The notes below the pieces were generated by a model, which ran no database searches, had not been told where the DNA came from, and was given only the letters and a program-made list of their open reading frames with translations. The position numbers were made by a program, and so were the translations under genes. 64,000 nt of DNA from Pseudomonas sp. 7SR1. GTDB taxonomy: Bacteria > Pseudomonadota > Gammaproteobacteria > Pseudomonadales > Pseudomonadaceae. The stretch spans positions 310,001 through 374,000 of the forward strand of contig NZ_LT707064.1 in assembly GCF_900156465.1 (NCBI RefSeq). Direction: 5' to 3'. Below, piece after piece: positions 2,993 to 64,000 of the stretch; within the stretch, counting starts at the first letter, position 1, and each line of letters begins with the position of its first letter.

Positions 2993-3409
2993 ATGGAGTT
3001 GAAGCCTATGAATACCTGCACTGCCAAACCCTCGATCAATGGCCTGCGCGGTCTGAAGCTGGCCGCCCTGGCCATCGGTAGCAGCTTCATCCTGGCCGGT
3101 TGCGCCGGCAACCCACCGTCGGAGCAGTACGCGGTAACGCAATCGGCGGTCAACAGCGCCGTCAGCGCCGGCGGCACCGAGTTCGCCGCGGTGGAAATGA
3201 AGGCCGCCCAGGACAAGCTCAAGCAAGCCGAAATCGCGATGCACGACAAGAACTACGAAGAAGCCCGGCGACTGGCCGAACAGGCCGAGTGGGACGCGCG
3301 CGTCGCTGAGCGCAAGGCCCAGGCCGCCAAGGCTGAACAGGCACTCAAGGACTCTCAGAAAGGGGTTCAGGAATTGCGTCAGGAAGGCATGAACAAGGTT
3401 GTTCAGTAA
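2993..3409 (+). CDS. DUF4398 lipoprotein (138 aa), LptF partner
   Basis: Probable outer-membrane lipoprotein. The ATG at 2993 is preferred over an upstream in-frame ATG because AGGAG sits 7 nt before it. A signal segment (LAALAIGSSFI) precedes the lipobox LAGC. The mature part is largely alpha-helical and Ala/Lys/Glu-rich (KAAQDKLKQAEIAMHDKNYEEARRL is split across a heptad-like stretch), typical of DUF4398. It ends 48 nt before the OmpA-like lipoprotein gene, which carries a similar DUF4398-like region before its OmpA domain, so the two are probably one transcription unit. Corresponds to PA3691 by position. Exact function unknown. Confidence 0.88.
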   Translation: MELKPMNTCTAKPSINGLRGLKLAALAIGSSFILAGCAGNPPSEQYAVTQSAVNSAVSAGGTEFAAVEMKAAQDKLKQAEIAMHDKNYEEARRLAEQAEWDARVAERKAQAAKAEQALKDSQKGVQELRQEGMNKVVQ

Positions 3410-43189: not shown

Positions 43190-44086
43190 TTATCCGCGTG
43201 GATGATGCTTCGCATGCAGGTCCTGCAGCCGTGCCCGGGCCACATGGGTATAGATCTGGGTGGTGGACAGGTCGCTATGACCCAACAGCATCTGCACCAC
43301 CCGCAGGTCGGCACCGTGGTTGAGCAGATGCGTGGCGAAAGCATGGCGCAGGGTGTGGGGCGAAAGGGACTTGCCGATCCCGGCCACCTTGGCCTGATGC
43401 TTGATACGGTGCCAGAAGGTCTGGCGGGTCATCTGCTCGCCGTTGCGGCTGGGGAACAGGACATCGCTGGGGCGCCCGGCCAGCAGCTCGTTGCGGCCAT
43501 CGCGCAGGTAACGCTCCACCCATACAATCGCCTCTTCACCCATCGGCACCAGGCGCTCCTTGCTGCCCTTGCCCATTACCCGCAGTACCCCCTGGCGCAG
43601 GTTGACCTGTTCCAGGGTGAGGCTGACCAGCTCGGTGACCCGCAGGCCGCAGGCATACAACACCTCCAGCATGGCACGGTCGCGCTGGCCGATGGCTTCA
43701 CTGAGGTCCGGCGCTGCCAGCAGGGCCTCCACGTCGGCTTCGGACAAGGATTTAGGCAACGGACGGCCCAGTTGCGGCATTTCCACCCGCAGGGTCGGGT
43801 CCACCGCGATGAGCTTTTCCCGCAGCAGGTAGCGATAGAACCCACGCAGCCCGGAGAGAAACCGTGCGGTCGAGCGGGGTTTGTAGTTTTGCTCCAGGCG
43901 CCACGACAAATGATCGAGGATCAGCTCCCGCCCGGCATGGGCCAGCTCCAGGTTTCTTTCCTGCAACCAGCCATTGAACAGCGCCAGGTCGCTGCGATAG
44001 GCGTCTCGAGTGTTATCCGAGAGGCCCTTCTCCAGCCACAGGGCATCGAGAAACTGGTCTATCAGGGGATGATCGATGGCAGGCAT
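43190..44086 (-). CDS. xerD: Tyrosine recombinase XerD
   Basis: With XerC resolves chromosome dimers at dif. The 298-aa protein has a SAM-like N-terminal domain (about 1-90) and catalytic residues Arg in ACGLRVTELVSL, Lys in GKGSKERLVPM, HxxR in LSPHTLRHAFATHLL, His/Trp position in LLGHSDLSTTQIYTHV with the nucleophile Tyr. Core gene; no sign of being an integrase of a mobile element. Confidence 0.96.
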   Translation of the reverse strand: MPAIDHPLIDQFLDALWLEKGLSDNTRDAYRSDLALFNGWLQERNLELAHAGRELILDHLSWRLEQNYKPRSTARFLSGLRGFYRYLLREKLIAVDPTLRVEMPQLGRPLPKSLSEADVEALLAAPDLSEAIGQRDRAMLEVLYACGLRVTELVSLTLEQVNLRQGVLRVMGKGSKERLVPMGEEAIVWVERYLRDGRNELLAGRPSDVLFPSRNGEQMTRQTFWHRIKHQAKVAGIGKSLSPHTLRHAFATHLLNHGADLRVVQMLLGHSDLSTTQIYTHVARARLQDLHAKHHPRG

Positions 44087-59151: not shown

Positions 59152-60015
59152 TCAGCTAGCCGATTTGCGTGCCGTGACAATCCATGCCGCGCCGTCAATC
59201 ATCACCGACCGCTCGCCGGGGAGACCCGCGAAGGCGGCGCGAACCGCGGCCCAGGCGTGGGCACGGATGTCGTCGGGCTGATCAGCGAGCACAAGCGACA
59301 GCGGGCCACCCTCGAATGCCATCTTCACGGCGTCGTCGATCGCCGCGTCCCGAGTCTCGCCTTGGCCGAACGAGATGGAAGCATCGAAGGGCGCGATAGT
59401 GATATCGGTGAAGCCGGCCGTTGTCAGGATGCGCTCCACGCGCCCCCGGTCGCCGAACGAGAATGGGCCGGGCACGTCGGGACCGGGCGGCGCGGGCAGC
59501 GGGACAATGTCCTTGATCGCGATCATGGGCAGACGCACCCAATCGTTCTCGGCCACGCCGCGCCAGCAGACGAAAGCGACCCGCCCGCCCGGTCGGAGCG
59601 CGCGTCGCATATGAGTGAACGCCGCTGTCGGATCGTCGAAAAACATCACGCCGAAACGCGAGAACAGCATATCGAACGCGCCCTCGGGCAGCTCGGCGCT
59701 GCTGGCGTCGGCCACTTGGAACAGGACCGGCGTATCCTGTGGCGCAAGCGCGCGCGCACGGCCAATCAACGGCTCGGATATGTCCACGCCCAGCACTTGG
59801 CCGCCCGCGCCGACGCGGGCGGCCAGATCCAGACTCGATGCGCCCGCGCCACAGCCGACGTCCAGCACCCGCTCACCCGTCGCGGGCGCGGCGGCTTCGA
59901 TCGCGGCCTGGCCGAATACCGCAAACATGGCGTCGAGCCGGGCCTGGTTGACGGCCCAGTACTCCCCGCTTTGGCCATTCCAGTCGGCGACCTGATAGGT
60001 TTTTTGCTCTGTCAT
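59152..60015 (-). CDS. Class I SAM-dependent methyltransferase
   Basis: 287 aa. The SAM fold shows motif I RVLDVGCGAGASSLDLA, motif II LGVDISEPLIGRARA and motif IV FDMLFSRFGVMFF. The acceptor is unknown. It is the last gene of a three-gene set on this strand (oxidoreductase, ABM protein, methyltransferase) and starts 26 nt after the ABM stop. It lies in an accessory block absent between multicopper oxidase and guaA in P. aeruginosa. Confidence 0.85.
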   Translation of the reverse strand: MTEQKTYQVADWNGQSGEYWAVNQARLDAMFAVFGQAAIEAAAPATGERVLDVGCGAGASSLDLAARVGAGGQVLGVDISEPLIGRARALAPQDTPVLFQVADASSAELPEGAFDMLFSRFGVMFFDDPTAAFTHMRRALRPGGRVAFVCWRGVAENDWVRLPMIAIKDIVPLPAPPGPDVPGPFSFGDRGRVERILTTAGFTDITIAPFDASISFGQGETRDAAIDDAVKMAFEGGPLSLVLADQPDDIRAHAWAAVRAAFAGLPGERSVMIDGAAWIVTARKSAS

Positions 60016-60041
60016 GACATTTCCTCATTTTGACGCATTCT

Positions 60042-60431
60042 TCAGGCCACGCAAAAGCCGGGGACGGCGACCTTCTGGAACAAGTGCGGGCTGCCTACGA
60101 CGGATGACGGATAGGCCGAAAGCTTCGCGACGAACTCGGGATGAGTGAGACCGGCGCGGACCGTCTCGGTGGACTCCCACACCACATAGTTCAGGTAAGT
60201 CGGGCTATCGCCGATCGCTCGATGCAGCTGCATGGAAATGAAGCCCGGTTGCTTCGTTATGATCTCGGCAGCCACCTTGAAAGCGTCCAGGAAGCCCGCT
60301 TCGTCGGCATAATCGAGCGTGAAGAGGTTGATGAGCACAACTGGCGCGGCAGTGATGCCGAGTTGACGCTCAAGCGGGAATTTATCGTCTAGCGGTTTGA
60401 ATTTACGCTCTTGCGGCTTTGGGTCGGCCAT
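60042..60431 (-). CDS. Antibiotic biosynthesis monooxygenase (ABM) domain protein
   Basis: 129 aa. The ATG at 60431 (MADPKPQERKF) is chosen; an earlier in-frame ATG gives an unlikely extension. A dimeric ferredoxin-like ABM fold is indicated by APVVLINLFTLDYADEAGFL and GFISMQLHRAIGDSPTYLNY. ABM proteins can be quinone-type monooxygenases or haem degraders; the function here is not assignable. Middle gene of the divergent cassette. Confidence 0.82.
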   Translation of the reverse strand: MADPKPQERKFKPLDDKFPLERQLGITAAPVVLINLFTLDYADEAGFLDAFKVAAEIITKQPGFISMQLHRAIGDSPTYLNYVVWESTETVRAGLTHPEFVAKLSAYPSSVVGSPHLFQKVAVPGFCVA

Positions 60432-60522
60432 GGTGGCACTCCCGTCTAATGGGAAAATGAAACTACCGTAATCGATGCTGCTTCGAAGCAACCTTTAAAA
60501 GCCTGCGCCAACCGAAGTGCCC

Positions 60523-61416
60523 TCAAACCAGCATCGACTGCTGGGCGCAGATGCCCGCCGTCGAGCCTTGCCATGATGCCGTGGTGACCGAGGGCATTGC
60601 GGGGTTGGCGAGGTCGCCGGCGGCGTAGATGCCGGGTACGCTGGTTTCGCGGCGCTCGTCGACCTTGAGGACGATGCCCTGGGGCGTATCGACCGTGGCG
60701 AGCCCCAGCGATTCATGCAGGCGTGCGGACGGCTTGTTGCGCGGATGCGCGAACAGGATGTCGACCGCAACAGAGGGGCCGGCGTCGAGCCTGACGGTGG
60801 CGTTATGGCTCTCGTCATGGTCGATTTCGGTGACCCGGCCATCGACGACAGGGATGCCACGGCGAGCCAGATCGGCCCGGATCTCGGGTGGAATGTCGTG
60901 ACCATTGGCGAAGACCGTCAATGTGTCAGTCCAATCGTGGTATAGCCTGACGTAGTTGTGCGACATTGGGCCGGACCAGACGAGGCCCCAATGCCGGCCG
61001 GCAACTTCAAAGCCGTCGCAATACGGGCAAGGCACGATGGAGCTGCCCCAGCCTTCGGCAAAGCCGGGAAGTTCAGGCATCTGGTCGGCGACGCCATAGC
61101 TCAGGATCAGGCGGCGCGCCCTCAGGGTTGCGCCCTCGCCCGTGAGGACGGAGAAATCGTCGAGGGCGCCGGAGACGCTCTCGGCCCGGGCATTGACCAG
61201 CTGGATCGTGGGATAGCGTGCCAGTTGCTGCCGCGCCTCGGCCAGTATCTCCAGCGGTGGCTTGTGGTCGTGGCCGAGCAGGCCATGGGAGTGGTCGGCG
61301 AAACGATTGCGCGGCAGGCCGGTATCGAGAACGGTGACCTTGCGGCGGGCACGGCCGAGTTGCAGGGCGGCGGCAAGACCGGCAAAACTGCCGCCGATGA
61401 TGATGACGTCATTCAT
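60523..61416 (-). CDS. FAD-dependent thioredoxin-reductase-like oxidoreductase with CxxC site
   Basis: 297 aa. FAD motif VIIIGGSFAGLAAALQLGRA at the N-terminus and a redox-active CPYCDG motif (about residue 135) place it in the TrxR-like disulfide oxidoreductase family that also includes GliT/HlmI enzymes of dithiol natural products. A C-terminal FAD segment PGIYAAGDLANPAMPSV follows. The start MNDVIIIGG at 61416 is clear. It is divergent from the TetR gene, its probable regulator. Confidence 0.86.
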   Translation of the reverse strand: MNDVIIIGGSFAGLAAALQLGRARRKVTVLDTGLPRNRFADHSHGLLGHDHKPPLEILAEARQQLARYPTIQLVNARAESVSGALDDFSVLTGEGATLRARRLILSYGVADQMPELPGFAEGWGSSIVPCPYCDGFEVAGRHWGLVWSGPMSHNYVRLYHDWTDTLTVFANGHDIPPEIRADLARRGIPVVDGRVTEIDHDESHNATVRLDAGPSVAVDILFAHPRNKPSARLHESLGLATVDTPQGIVLKVDERRETSVPGIYAAGDLANPAMPSVTTASWQGSTAGICAQQSMLV

Positions 61417-61479
61417 GATGATGGGCTCCGCGCTGTGGATGAAGGGAGATCGGCTTGCAAAATTAAGATACTCACTGGT

Positions 61480-61509
61480 ACCATAATTTACAAATTTAGA
61501 TACTGTCAA
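61480..61509 (-). promoter_or_regulatory. Promoter of the oxidoreductase cassette, overlapped by repeated motifs
   Basis: On the minus strand TTGACA (61509-61504), an 18-nt spacer and TATGGT (61485-61480). The direct motif AGATACT recurs on the plus strand at 61466 and 61498, each followed by a GTAC core, covering both ends of this promoter. These are good candidate TetR operator halves. Confidence 0.5.
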
Positions 61510-61522
61510 GTACTGGAATTTT

Positions 61523-62152
61523 ATGACCGAACACAGTCAGGCCCGACGCGGCCGGCCCGCCAACGATGCGCTAGGCCAGACGATCATTGACGCCGCGGGC
61601 GAACTTTTTGTGGAATTGGGTTTTCAAGCGACGACAATGGACAAGGTCGCCCAGCGGGCGAAGATATCCAAGCTCAGCATCTATCGGCACTTCGAGAACA
61701 AGGAGGCGCTGTTCAGTGCGGCCATTGCGGCCCACTGCCATCAGTTTGCACCCCAAGCCCTTATTGAAGGCGTCGGCGGTTCGGCGGCAGATCAGCTCAT
61801 GGCGGTGGGAACATCCCTGCTTCGCACGTTGCTGAGCCCCGACGTGCGCAGTGTCGAAGCCATGATCATGGCCGACAAGACGAATCAAAAATCGTTAAGC
61901 AAGCGCCATTACGAAGCCGGTCCCGCCTATGTCATTGCCCAGATCGAGGCCCTGTTGCGTCAGTTGCACGCGAAGGCGGTTCTGAACGTGCCCGATCCTC
62001 GCCAGTCCGCCCGTTTGTTTGCCGCGCTTTTCAAAGGGTCCGATCTGCTGATGATCGCGCGCTTCGATGAGGCCAGGGCAGAGGACGACAACGAAATCGA
62101 ATCCTATTGCCGGGCAGCCGTCGCCATGTTCATCGCCGCGCACGAAAAATAA
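61523..62152 (+). CDS. TetR-family regulator of the accessory cassette
   Basis: 209 aa. A basic N-terminus (ARRGRPAND) precedes the helix-turn-helix (IIDAAGELFVELGFQATTMDKV, KISKLSIYRHFENKEALF), and the C-terminal domain resembles AefR-like TetR_C domains. It is divergent from the oxidoreductase gene with 106 nt between, containing repeated motifs. It runs toward the guaA-type terminator. Confidence 0.88.
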   Translation: MTEHSQARRGRPANDALGQTIIDAAGELFVELGFQATTMDKVAQRAKISKLSIYRHFENKEALFSAAIAAHCHQFAPQALIEGVGGSAADQLMAVGTSLLRTLLSPDVRSVEAMIMADKTNQKSLSKRHYEAGPAYVIAQIEALLRQLHAKAVLNVPDPRQSARLFAALFKGSDLLMIARFDEARAEDDNEIESYCRAAVAMFIAAHEK

Positions 62153-62281
62153 GACCGTGCCCGGAAAAGCACTCATGCATCACGAGAGAACCCAACGAAA
62201 CCGGGCTGATCAAGAGATTTGATCCCAGGCCCTTCCCTGGCGAGGCGACAGGGTATCGAGCACCCCGCAGGGCATTTGCCC

Positions 62282-62313
62282 CAAAAAGCCAAAAGCCCGC
62301 AATTACGCGGGCT
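62282..62313 (-). terminator. Orphan guaA-type terminator
   Basis: On the minus strand AGCCCGC-N6-GCGGGCT followed by TTTTGGCTTTTT. It lies about 50 nt beyond a TGA preceded by the codons for Glu-Trp-Glu (the C-terminus of GMP synthase), but no guaA body is present upstream; island DNA is there instead. Confidence 0.75.
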
Positions 62314-62360
62314 TCAGGGCATTTCCTGTTAATGGGTGCCGGACAACGCCGGACGCCCAA

Positions 62361-62372
62361 TCATTCCCACTC
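62361..62372 (-). other. Putative attachment site: last codons of guaA
   Basis: GAGTGGGAATGA on the minus strand encodes E-W-E-stop, the conserved GuaA C-terminus. Upstream of it (to the right) the sequence stops matching GuaA (expected PPATI before EWE, found MM), so only this tail is guaA-like. The guaA 3' end is a known integration hotspot. I take this as the left attachment site (att) of the element that starts here; the core length is a guess. Confidence 0.6.
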
Positions 62373-62578
62373 CATCATCAACAGGTCTCGCAAGCCCGCG
62401 TGGATAAAGGGATTTGCGATGATCGACATGGGCCACTACCGTCGCTTTTACCGTCATCCGACAAGAGCTTTATCTGGTGCGGAAGATGGAGGAACTTGAG
62501 GGGCGACGACTCTGGCAACTCCATCGTCAATCACCCTCTAGGATAGCGCAGACAAGCACAGCAGTCTTCCTCCGAGCA

Positions 62579-62821
62579 TCACTTCGTTGATGGCTTCGGC
62601 GCTGGCCCCTGCCCTCCCCTCTTGAAACCACGATCCCCTGCCATAAACACCTCAAGCATGTGCGGAATCAGCACTGTGGCATCGACCGCTTCACCGTAGA
62701 TCTGCGCGTGCAGCGCGGCGTAGCGGTCGAGATCTGCTTTCAAGCTGGCCGAGCAAACAAAGGTCAGCTTAGTGGATTCCGTCTTCGGTAGCGGCCCGAG
62801 CCGCAGCTTGCGCGTCGTCAT
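62579..62821 (-). CDS. DUF2274 family protein of conjugative elements
   Basis: 80 aa. MTTRKLRLGPLPKTESTKLTF is typical of DUF2274 proteins that follow trbI in Trb-type conjugation loci of ICEs. The predicted fold is ribbon-helix-helix-like (ASLKADLDRYAALHAQIYG), so a small DNA-binding role is possible. It overlaps the trbI stop by 4 nt and is the last element gene before the junction. Confidence 0.82.
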   Translation of the reverse strand: MTTRKLRLGPLPKTESTKLTFVCSASLKADLDRYAALHAQIYGEAVDATVLIPHMLEVFMAGDRGFKRGGQGPAPKPSTK

Positions 62822-64000
62822 CGAGAAGTCCCCCTGTTGAAGAAAAGTGGCTGGTACGGCCGCAGCACCAAGTCGCGGTTGACGATGATGCGAACCGGCA
62901 AGCCGGGGCGCTCGGTCAGCGTCGGCTGGATGTTGAGGTTGCGCCGGGTCATCTCCTGGCCGACCTGATTGATGCTGTCCTGCGCGCTGTCGCGCCCGGC
63001 GATGATGACGCGATCACCGTCTTGCCGGTTCTCCGGCGCGGCCAACTCGGCACCGATGCCCAGCAGCGTGGTCAGCGCCGCGCCGGCAAAGATGCGATCC
63101 CAATGCCAATCCACGTCATCCTCCAGGCCGGCATAGCCGGCCGGGTCGGTGCCGGCCAGGTTATCGAGCGTGAGCGAGGACGTATCCGGCAGGATGATGC
63201 GGTTCCACACCACCTGCACGCGGCTCTGCCCGTAGCTGACCTGGCTGTTGTATTTGCCCAGGATGCGCGAACCCTGCGGAATCAGCAGGAAGCGCCCGGT
63301 GGCCGTGTCATAGACCGGCTCCGTTACAGTGGCGATCACGTCGCCCGGCAGATCGGACTTGATGCCCGTCACCAGCGCCCCGGCGACCACCGTTCCGGCC
63401 ATGACCTGATACGGCGAAGCCGGCAGGGTCAGGTTGCCGGAATTGCGGGTTTCCGTGGTTCCGGCTTTCTGGAAAGCCTCTTTCTGGTCTTGCCGGTTCT
63501 GTACGGCGGTCGGGTCGGCAGGCTGGGCCGCCGTCGAGGCCGGGCCAGCCGCCAGTGGGTCGAACGCCGCATTGGCGGCGAAGCCCGGCGCGGCGGCCAC
63601 CTGCGTCTGCGCCACCGGCGCGGCCTGCTGCGAACCCGAGCGGAAGAACACCGACGATGCCGCCGCCGCTTCGGCTTCCTTGCGTAGCGCGTCGTTCGGG
63701 TCGTGGCCGGGGGCCGCGTAGGCGGCCGTCACCGGCTGCTGCGACTTCACGATGGCCGGGCCAAGATCGCCCGGCAGCGGCGGCCCCAGCCCCGGCACGG
63801 ATGCCGGCAACGGGGGCGGCAGCTTGGAGTAGTTGGCCGGCAGCGCGTCCAGCCCTTCGGACTTCGAGACGCGATCGACGTTGTAAAGCTCGGTCTGCTC
63901 GCCCGCGCCGCGCCGCTGCGGTTGCAGTGACCACATCAGCGCGCCGAGCACGGCGACCGACAGGGTGCCGGCGAGGATGGCCAGCGTGCGCCGGTTCAGG
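62818..64000 (-). CDS. trbI: Conjugal transfer protein TrbI/VirB10 (N-terminus beyond window)
   Basis: Core component of a P-type (Trb) type IV secretion system bridging inner and outer membranes. The visible 394 codons include the transmembrane start (LNRRTLAILAGTLSVAVLGA), a Pro/Ala-rich periplasmic linker (about 35-160), and the VirB10 beta-barrel domain (PYQVMAGTVVAGALVTGIKS, ATGRFLLIPQGSRILGKYNS, RVQVVWNRIILPDTSSLTL). The frame is open to the window edge, so the true start lies to the right. It is followed by DUF2274, the order seen in Tn4371-like ICEs. Confidence 0.93.
   Translation of the reverse strand, partial: LNRRTLAILAGTLSVAVLGALMWSLQPQRRGAGEQTELYNVDRVSKSEGLDALPANYSKLPPPLPASVPGLGPPLPGDLGPAIVKSQQPVTAAYAAPGHDPNDALRKEAEAAAASSVFFRSGSQQAAPVAQTQVAAAPGFAANAAFDPLAAGPASTAAQPADPTAVQNRQDQKEAFQKAGTTETRNSGNLTLPASPYQVMAGTVVAGALVTGIKSDLPGDVIATVTEPVYDTATGRFLLIPQGSRILGKYNSQVSYGQSRVQVVWNRIILPDTSSLTLDNLAGTDPAGYAGLEDDVDWHWDRIFAGAALTTLLGIGAELAAPENRQDGDRVIIAGRDSAQDSINQVGQEMTRRNLNIQPTLTERPGLPVRIIVNRDLVLRPYQPLFFNRGTSR

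Follow-up and report, generated by a model that had tools for sequence, protein, structure and literature searches.

Evidence for an integrative and conjugative element of 57.7 kb, complete in appearance, at the guaA 3' end in Pseudomonas sp. 7SR1

The window is the whole stretch of 64,000 nucleotides that we analysed, bases 310001-374000 of a single-contig 6.09-Mb genome (6,090,201 bp, completeness given as 100). In Table 1, we report the features found around its right edge. There, the minus strand reads GAGTGGGAATGA, the codons Glu-Trp-Glu-stop, and just 3' of these codons lies a terminator-like hairpin with 10 pairs and a T-rich tail. The same hairpin follows guaA in all five relatives scanned; in four of them the fetched flank is free of integrase matches, and in one (L024) it has an integrase fragment. 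The 100 bases that include codons and hairpin are conserved in L020-L038, the 19 fetched genus relatives with the best matches, and at about 80-92% identity in further fetched loci; a longer query, window 62150-62395, is matched by 63 of 199 genus genomes. In all 19 relatives a guaA match directly adjoins the counterpart of 62280-62379. In the window there is no guaA body beside it, and DUF2274 and then trbI stand there instead. With up to two mismatches allowed, an 18-base pattern of the guaA end has a single occurrence in the window, against a chance expectation of 0.01. The preliminary description had reported a guaA terminator and the last codons Glu-Trp-Glu-stop with the guaA body replaced by DUF2274 and trbI, and sequence, hairpin and family matches agree with it: the displaced guaA end is real.

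Table 1. Features at the right-hand end of the window and in the adjoining genome (window positions, unless marked as genome positions).
Feature	Position	Strand	Content or evidence
Block between oxidase and element	59152..62152		methyltransferase-like, short protein, NAD(P)/FAD-type reductase-like and TetR-like genes; ORF names by eye
Putative relic, like the leader that immediately precedes the integrase in another guaA-island class	62147..62278	-	71-83% identity in 8 of 19 loci (L020-L038)
guaA 3' end and downstream flank, parted from guaA by the element	62280..62379	-	87-92% identity in 19 relatives (L020-L038)
guaA intrinsic-terminator-like hairpin, 57.7 kb away from guaA	62292..62315	-	hairpin scan
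attL, last guaA codons GAG TGG GAA TGA	62361..62372	-	8-bp core TCCCACTC (plus strand) at 62365-62372; partner attR core at genome 430097, outside the window
Element left (trb-side) end	62373..62578		putative integrase arm site TTTACCGTCA at 62447-62456
DUF2274 protein, 80 aa	62579..62821	-	PF10038, E 3.9e-21
trbI, 426 aa; gene reaches genome 374098, past the window edge	62818..64000	-	PF03743, E 2.6e-60
Integrase-side genes	genome 422061-428533		SMC/AAA ATPase, RES-domain protein, borderline Mrr nuclease match (21.1 bits vs 21), PADLOC candidate PDC-M06B match (E 2.7e-85)
Tyrosine integrase ORF	genome 428535-429791		same strand as guaA, 301 bp past the guaA stop; domains Phage_integrase, Arm-DNA-bind_3, Phage_int_M
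guaA ORF	genome 430093-431670		guaA N-terminal family match at 431056-431643

The missing guaA is found 57.7 kb to the right, and it is the sole guaA above the family cut-off. We considered a second full guaA elsewhere in the genome; five other matches fall well below the cut-off. Beside guaA is a tyrosine integrase that we take to be of the P4 type, and the element also has an AlpA-type regulator, a 113-aa protein with an HTH_17 match above the cut-off and an excisionase-type match below it. The preliminary description had placed an integrase and an intact guaA beyond the right edge, and both are there. It had also named two findings that would speak against it, a guaA elsewhere with its normal downstream flank and the lack of an integrase or of a second att repeat copy; the integrase is present, and the one guaA that passes the cut-off is without its normal flank. 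The genome's strongest Phage_integrase match is another protein, a 300-aa tyrosine recombinase at window 43235-43750, perhaps XerC or XerD.

Between the two junctions we count 49 ORFs (genome 372579 to 429791), taken from a rough script with small genes added; 37 were scanned with Pfam, eight trb/traG frames with NCBIfam only, and four were left out. From the left, the order is DUF2274, trbI, trbG, trbF, trbL, a small Eex-like protein (below cut-off), trbJ, trbE, trbD, trbC and trbB, continued by a CopG-like protein (so named solely for its position beside an annotated homologue), traG, a TrbK-like protein (just below cut-off) and LysR. That trbI is followed by traG and the other genes of the trb operon bears out the earlier placing of a Trb conjugation module at this end. 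Cargo genes are next, first TetR, hydrolase, aldo/keto reductase, zinc alcohol dehydrogenase, YdjM, LpxR, metallo-beta-lactamase-fold and MipA genes, and then an RND efflux set (AcrB, HlyD, OEP), two more TetR and two more hydrolase genes. The remaining backbone begins with a DUF3363 relaxase-like protein, a TraF-like peptidase (below cut-off), DUF2840, ParA, RepA and the AlpA/excisionase-like HTH protein, and goes on with a RovC-type regulator, DUF2958, DUF736, ParB and DUF932 proteins. The integrase-side genes of Table 1 are candidate cargo of a defence or toxin type. TraG, TrbB, TrbE, TrbF, TrbG, TrbJ and TrbL score above their NCBIfam cut-offs and TrbI above the Pfam cut-off; the relaxase, TraF, TrbI, TrbC and TrbD matches are under the NCBIfam curated cut-offs. 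The relaxase is recognised by DUF3363 (E 3.5e-149), with RlxS and Pfam Relaxase both below cut-off. To judge from these family matches, the element has the genes expected of an integrative and conjugative element (ICE): a relaxase, a coupling protein and mating-pair-formation genes.

Compared with plasmid records, the trb-region DNA is matched in 159, with 82.7-89.4% identity over 70-78% of the 17.7-kb query in the 20 matches listed. The cargo is matched in eight records, each over at most 3% of the query, the right end in one (12% of the query), and the integrase DNA in 44, all in the 60-80% identity band. We rejected base composition as a mark of foreign DNA: the G+C content is equal inside and outside (0.633 in the element, 0.629 in window 1-59000).

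The two junctions carry the plus-strand repeats TCATTCCCACTC (left) and TCACTCCCACTC (right), which differ at one base. The second copy of the 12-bp repeat anticipated at the far end is found there, identical at 11 of the 12 bases, and the 8-bp core common to both junctions is exact, TCCCACTC on the plus strand and GAGTGGGA on the guaA strand. Both ends carry the attachment core published for guaA, with 57,732 bp from core to core. A search for long exact att repeats gave at most a 13-mer shared by the compared end regions, GCTTTTACCGTCA, which is a candidate arm site and not the att core. When the flanks are joined in silico at the core, the product aligns ungapped across the joint to relatives L020 (95.5% over 487 bp) and L021 (93.2% over 486 bp), neither of which has an integrase match within the roughly 1.5 kb fetched beyond. 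The guaA end reads CATTCCCAC, the same as the window copy, in 11 of the 12 relatives printed (the plus-orientation ones of the 19), and CACTCCCAC in L023. The simplest account is that the present guaA got its last codons from the element; the differing repeat base also varies naturally, as L023 shows.

On this evidence, we consider it nearly certain that an ICE of 57.7 kb, complete in appearance, sits at the guaA 3' end and that its trb-side end forms the right edge of the window. The earlier reading of an ICE inserted at that gene end is supported. In the mechanism that we propose, the P4-like tyrosine integrase would recombine the 8-bp core GAGTGGGA with the identical bases in the last guaA codons, so that the crossover point would lie within those bases. 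The element would supply its own last codons, GAG TGG GAG TGA, which would leave guaA intact, as it is observed to be; the former last codons and the terminator would be moved to the far side of the element, inside the window. The element is predicted to excise, and its transfer would depend on the relaxase together with TraG and a type IV secretion apparatus made of the Trb proteins.

The tie between this clade of integrases and guaA is seen in two samples. In a species-level genome collection there are 421 relatives of the integrase, of which we kept the best 80; in 71 of these best 80 the guaA end (KPPATIEWE-stop, once KPPGTIEWE) lies 298-328 bp upstream, with a median of 301. The other nine have no guaA end by this test. 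Two of them (L072 and L075) have less than 300 bp of upstream contig, and two (L082 and L098) have no GAGTGGGA core in 900 bp. The remaining five (L048, L071, L093, L113 and L122) have GAGTGGGA before the integrase in other, often A/T-rich DNA, and are possibly tandem islands or other sites. In the genus, integrase matches at E 1e-60 or better number 39 and are spread over 37 of 198 genomes (own included). Among the 30 of these loci that were fetched, all 17 with at least 54% identity (own included) have guaA alongside, and the 13 with at most 40% identity have no guaA within the fetched flank. The trb end is matched in 20 of the 198 genomes (own included), and outside the own genome no match reaches left of window 62616. 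Among the 198 genomes sampled, no genus relative shares the non-coding left end. G138 is the sole genus relative with an 83% integrase, and there about 785 kb separate this integrase from the trb match. Since the left-end matches stop at 62616 and the two modules are so far apart in G138, we find no close sister of the whole element in the 198-genome sample. A plasmid copy of the left end (L166), read solely for where homology stops, keeps its similarity as far as the CCCACTC core and loses it beyond, which gives independent support for the element boundary. That record, around position 3010, is a Salmonella plasmid typed IncHI2A, in which the left-end copy is joined at the CCCACTC core to other DNA.

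Both element ends also share short repeated motifs. TTTACCGTCA is common to both, and TTACCGTCA has three copies in the 64 kb examined (genome 371001-435000), one in the left end and two in the integrase leader, all within the element ends. Of the 80 related loci, 78 had enough upstream DNA for a leader count. TTACCGTC occurs at least once in 78/78 leaders and two or more times in 75/78, whereas 1600 random 330-bp pieces drawn from these loci have 0.12 on average; the leaders of related integrases share ancestry, so these counts describe conservation and not independent recurrence. The motifs are putative arm-type sites for the integrase or the excisionase.

Tn4371-family ICEs are presumably like the present element in the order and type of the trb module and in having RepA and ParA/ParB genes. 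Tn4371 uses another short target sequence; the present site is guaA, and we therefore do not file the element in that family. A Tn4371 likeness of its Trb module is suggested by the paper on the Pseudomonas sp. M1 ICE (PMC10386936), whose authors describe the M1 transfer module as similar to Tn4371. The guaA 3' end with the GAGTGGGA core is a published island site (Song et al. 2012, via PMC7775301, PMC7419628 and PMC10386936). The M1 ICE, likened here by its description in passages of PMC10386936, has the same guaA site, a P4-type integrase beside guaA, an AlpA-family regulator, and traG and trbBCDEJLFGI at the far end; it is 76 kb long with beta-myrcene genes, whereas the present element is 57.7 kb long with RND efflux, hydrolase and defence-like cargo. 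ICE6775 of P. fluorescens SBW25, according to sections of PMC7419628, is 52 kb long and has a P4-like integrase, replication and partition genes, an MPF-T module and a 12-bp GAGTGGGAGTGA repeat at guaA; it differs in its mercury resistance and in that one 12-bp sequence is given for both ends, against the one-base difference of the present element. ICERspD18B (PMC7775301) and GIsul2 (PMC9376610), from extracts of the two papers, share the guaA 3' end and the GAGTGGGA core, and GIsul2 also an alpA gene; their authors showed excision and integration. Both are smaller than the present element, with drug- or arsenic-resistance cargo, and few trb genes are named in those extracts (trbL, trbK and trbJ for ICERspD18B, trbL for GIsul2). 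Element class and insertion spot are both documented, and the present element is a further case of both. Exact limits can now be given for a mobile element cut by the window edge, and the class gains one well-delimited case and a conserved set of candidate integrase arm sites; the understanding of the class is unchanged.

We looked at the interval between guaA and the multicopper oxidase in 59 genus genomes, own included. guaA is found in 59 and the oxidase in 58, with both on one contig and strand within 200 kb in 48; in the other 11 the gap could not be measured, either for want of an oxidase match or because the two genes are on different contigs, on opposite strands or in the wrong order. 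In the 47 relatives the gap ranges from 134 bp to 27.9 kb with a median of 8.7 kb (five under 1 kb, 14 at 1-5 kb, 25 at 5-20 kb, three above 20 kb), and the present gap of 61 kb is the largest of the 48. The preliminary description had guaA directly upstream of the oxidase in relatives, which is not the usual arrangement: since the gap is under 1 kb in only 5 of 47, the interval is usually occupied. In this genus it is a busy integration hotspot. In nine other genomes (G010, G051, G066, G104, G110, G145, G164, G184 and G192) the terminator stretch has at least two diverged matches on one contig with several kb between them, as though certain islands there had a terminator copy of their own.

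The relic that abuts the element (Table 1) suggests an eroded earlier insertion. In the eight loci that it resembles, the integrases beside guaA are 54-58% identical to the present one (L023 has only a 41-residue fragment); in the present genome no integrase follows the relic. The neighbouring four-gene block, which has no protein match in the fetched relatives' flanks, is probably hotspot cargo or the remains of an older guaA island. It is possible, although we lean away from it, that the guaA-end copy in the window also comes from such an older island and not from the original host site, the present element having inserted between guaA and that island. The likeness of 62147-62278 to the leader of a second guaA-island integrase class agrees with this, and so does the location of the block in the part of the guaA-oxidase interval that varies among relatives. 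However, L020 and L021 (92%), whose fetched flanks show no integrase match, resemble 62280-62379 no less than island carriers do (80-91%), so that this stretch may be original host flank with the relic beyond it, and a search with window 62150-62395 reported no second terminator copy in the present genome.

Whether its left flank is host DNA or older island, the ICE at guaA could be an immobile or only mobilisable relic, one that inserted as an ICE and no longer excises or conjugates alone. We find this somewhat unlikely. The att repeats do differ at one base, and ICE6775 was not re-mobilised by its authors in the experiments cited from PMC7419628, from which it follows that a complete sequence is no proof of transfer. 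Against a relic, the integrase, coupling protein, relaxase-like and trb genes are all open frames, traG, trbB, trbC, trbE, trbF, trbG, trbI and trbL have by eye about the same lengths as annotated plasmid homologues, and the 8-bp core is exact. A false contig join of the guaA end to trbI, for which we find no evidence, is hardly credible in a single 6.09-Mb contig with completeness given as 100, with both junctions on the published core, joined flanks that match the relatives' uninterrupted site without gaps, and the same guaA-integrase spacing in 71 of the best 80 of 421 loci.

Finally, we put forward an idea about the site itself that we rate as unlikely in its full form. The guaA-oxidase interval would be an accretion site in which islands with different integrases pile up; insertion would strip guaA of its terminator, and with the integrase 301 bp downstream and codirectional, read-through (from guaA when integrated, from trb in the circle) might set integrase expression. 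A loose scan of the guaA-integrase gap on the strand of both genes gives no terminator-like site in this element, and it gives one in 25 of the 78 relatives' gaps.
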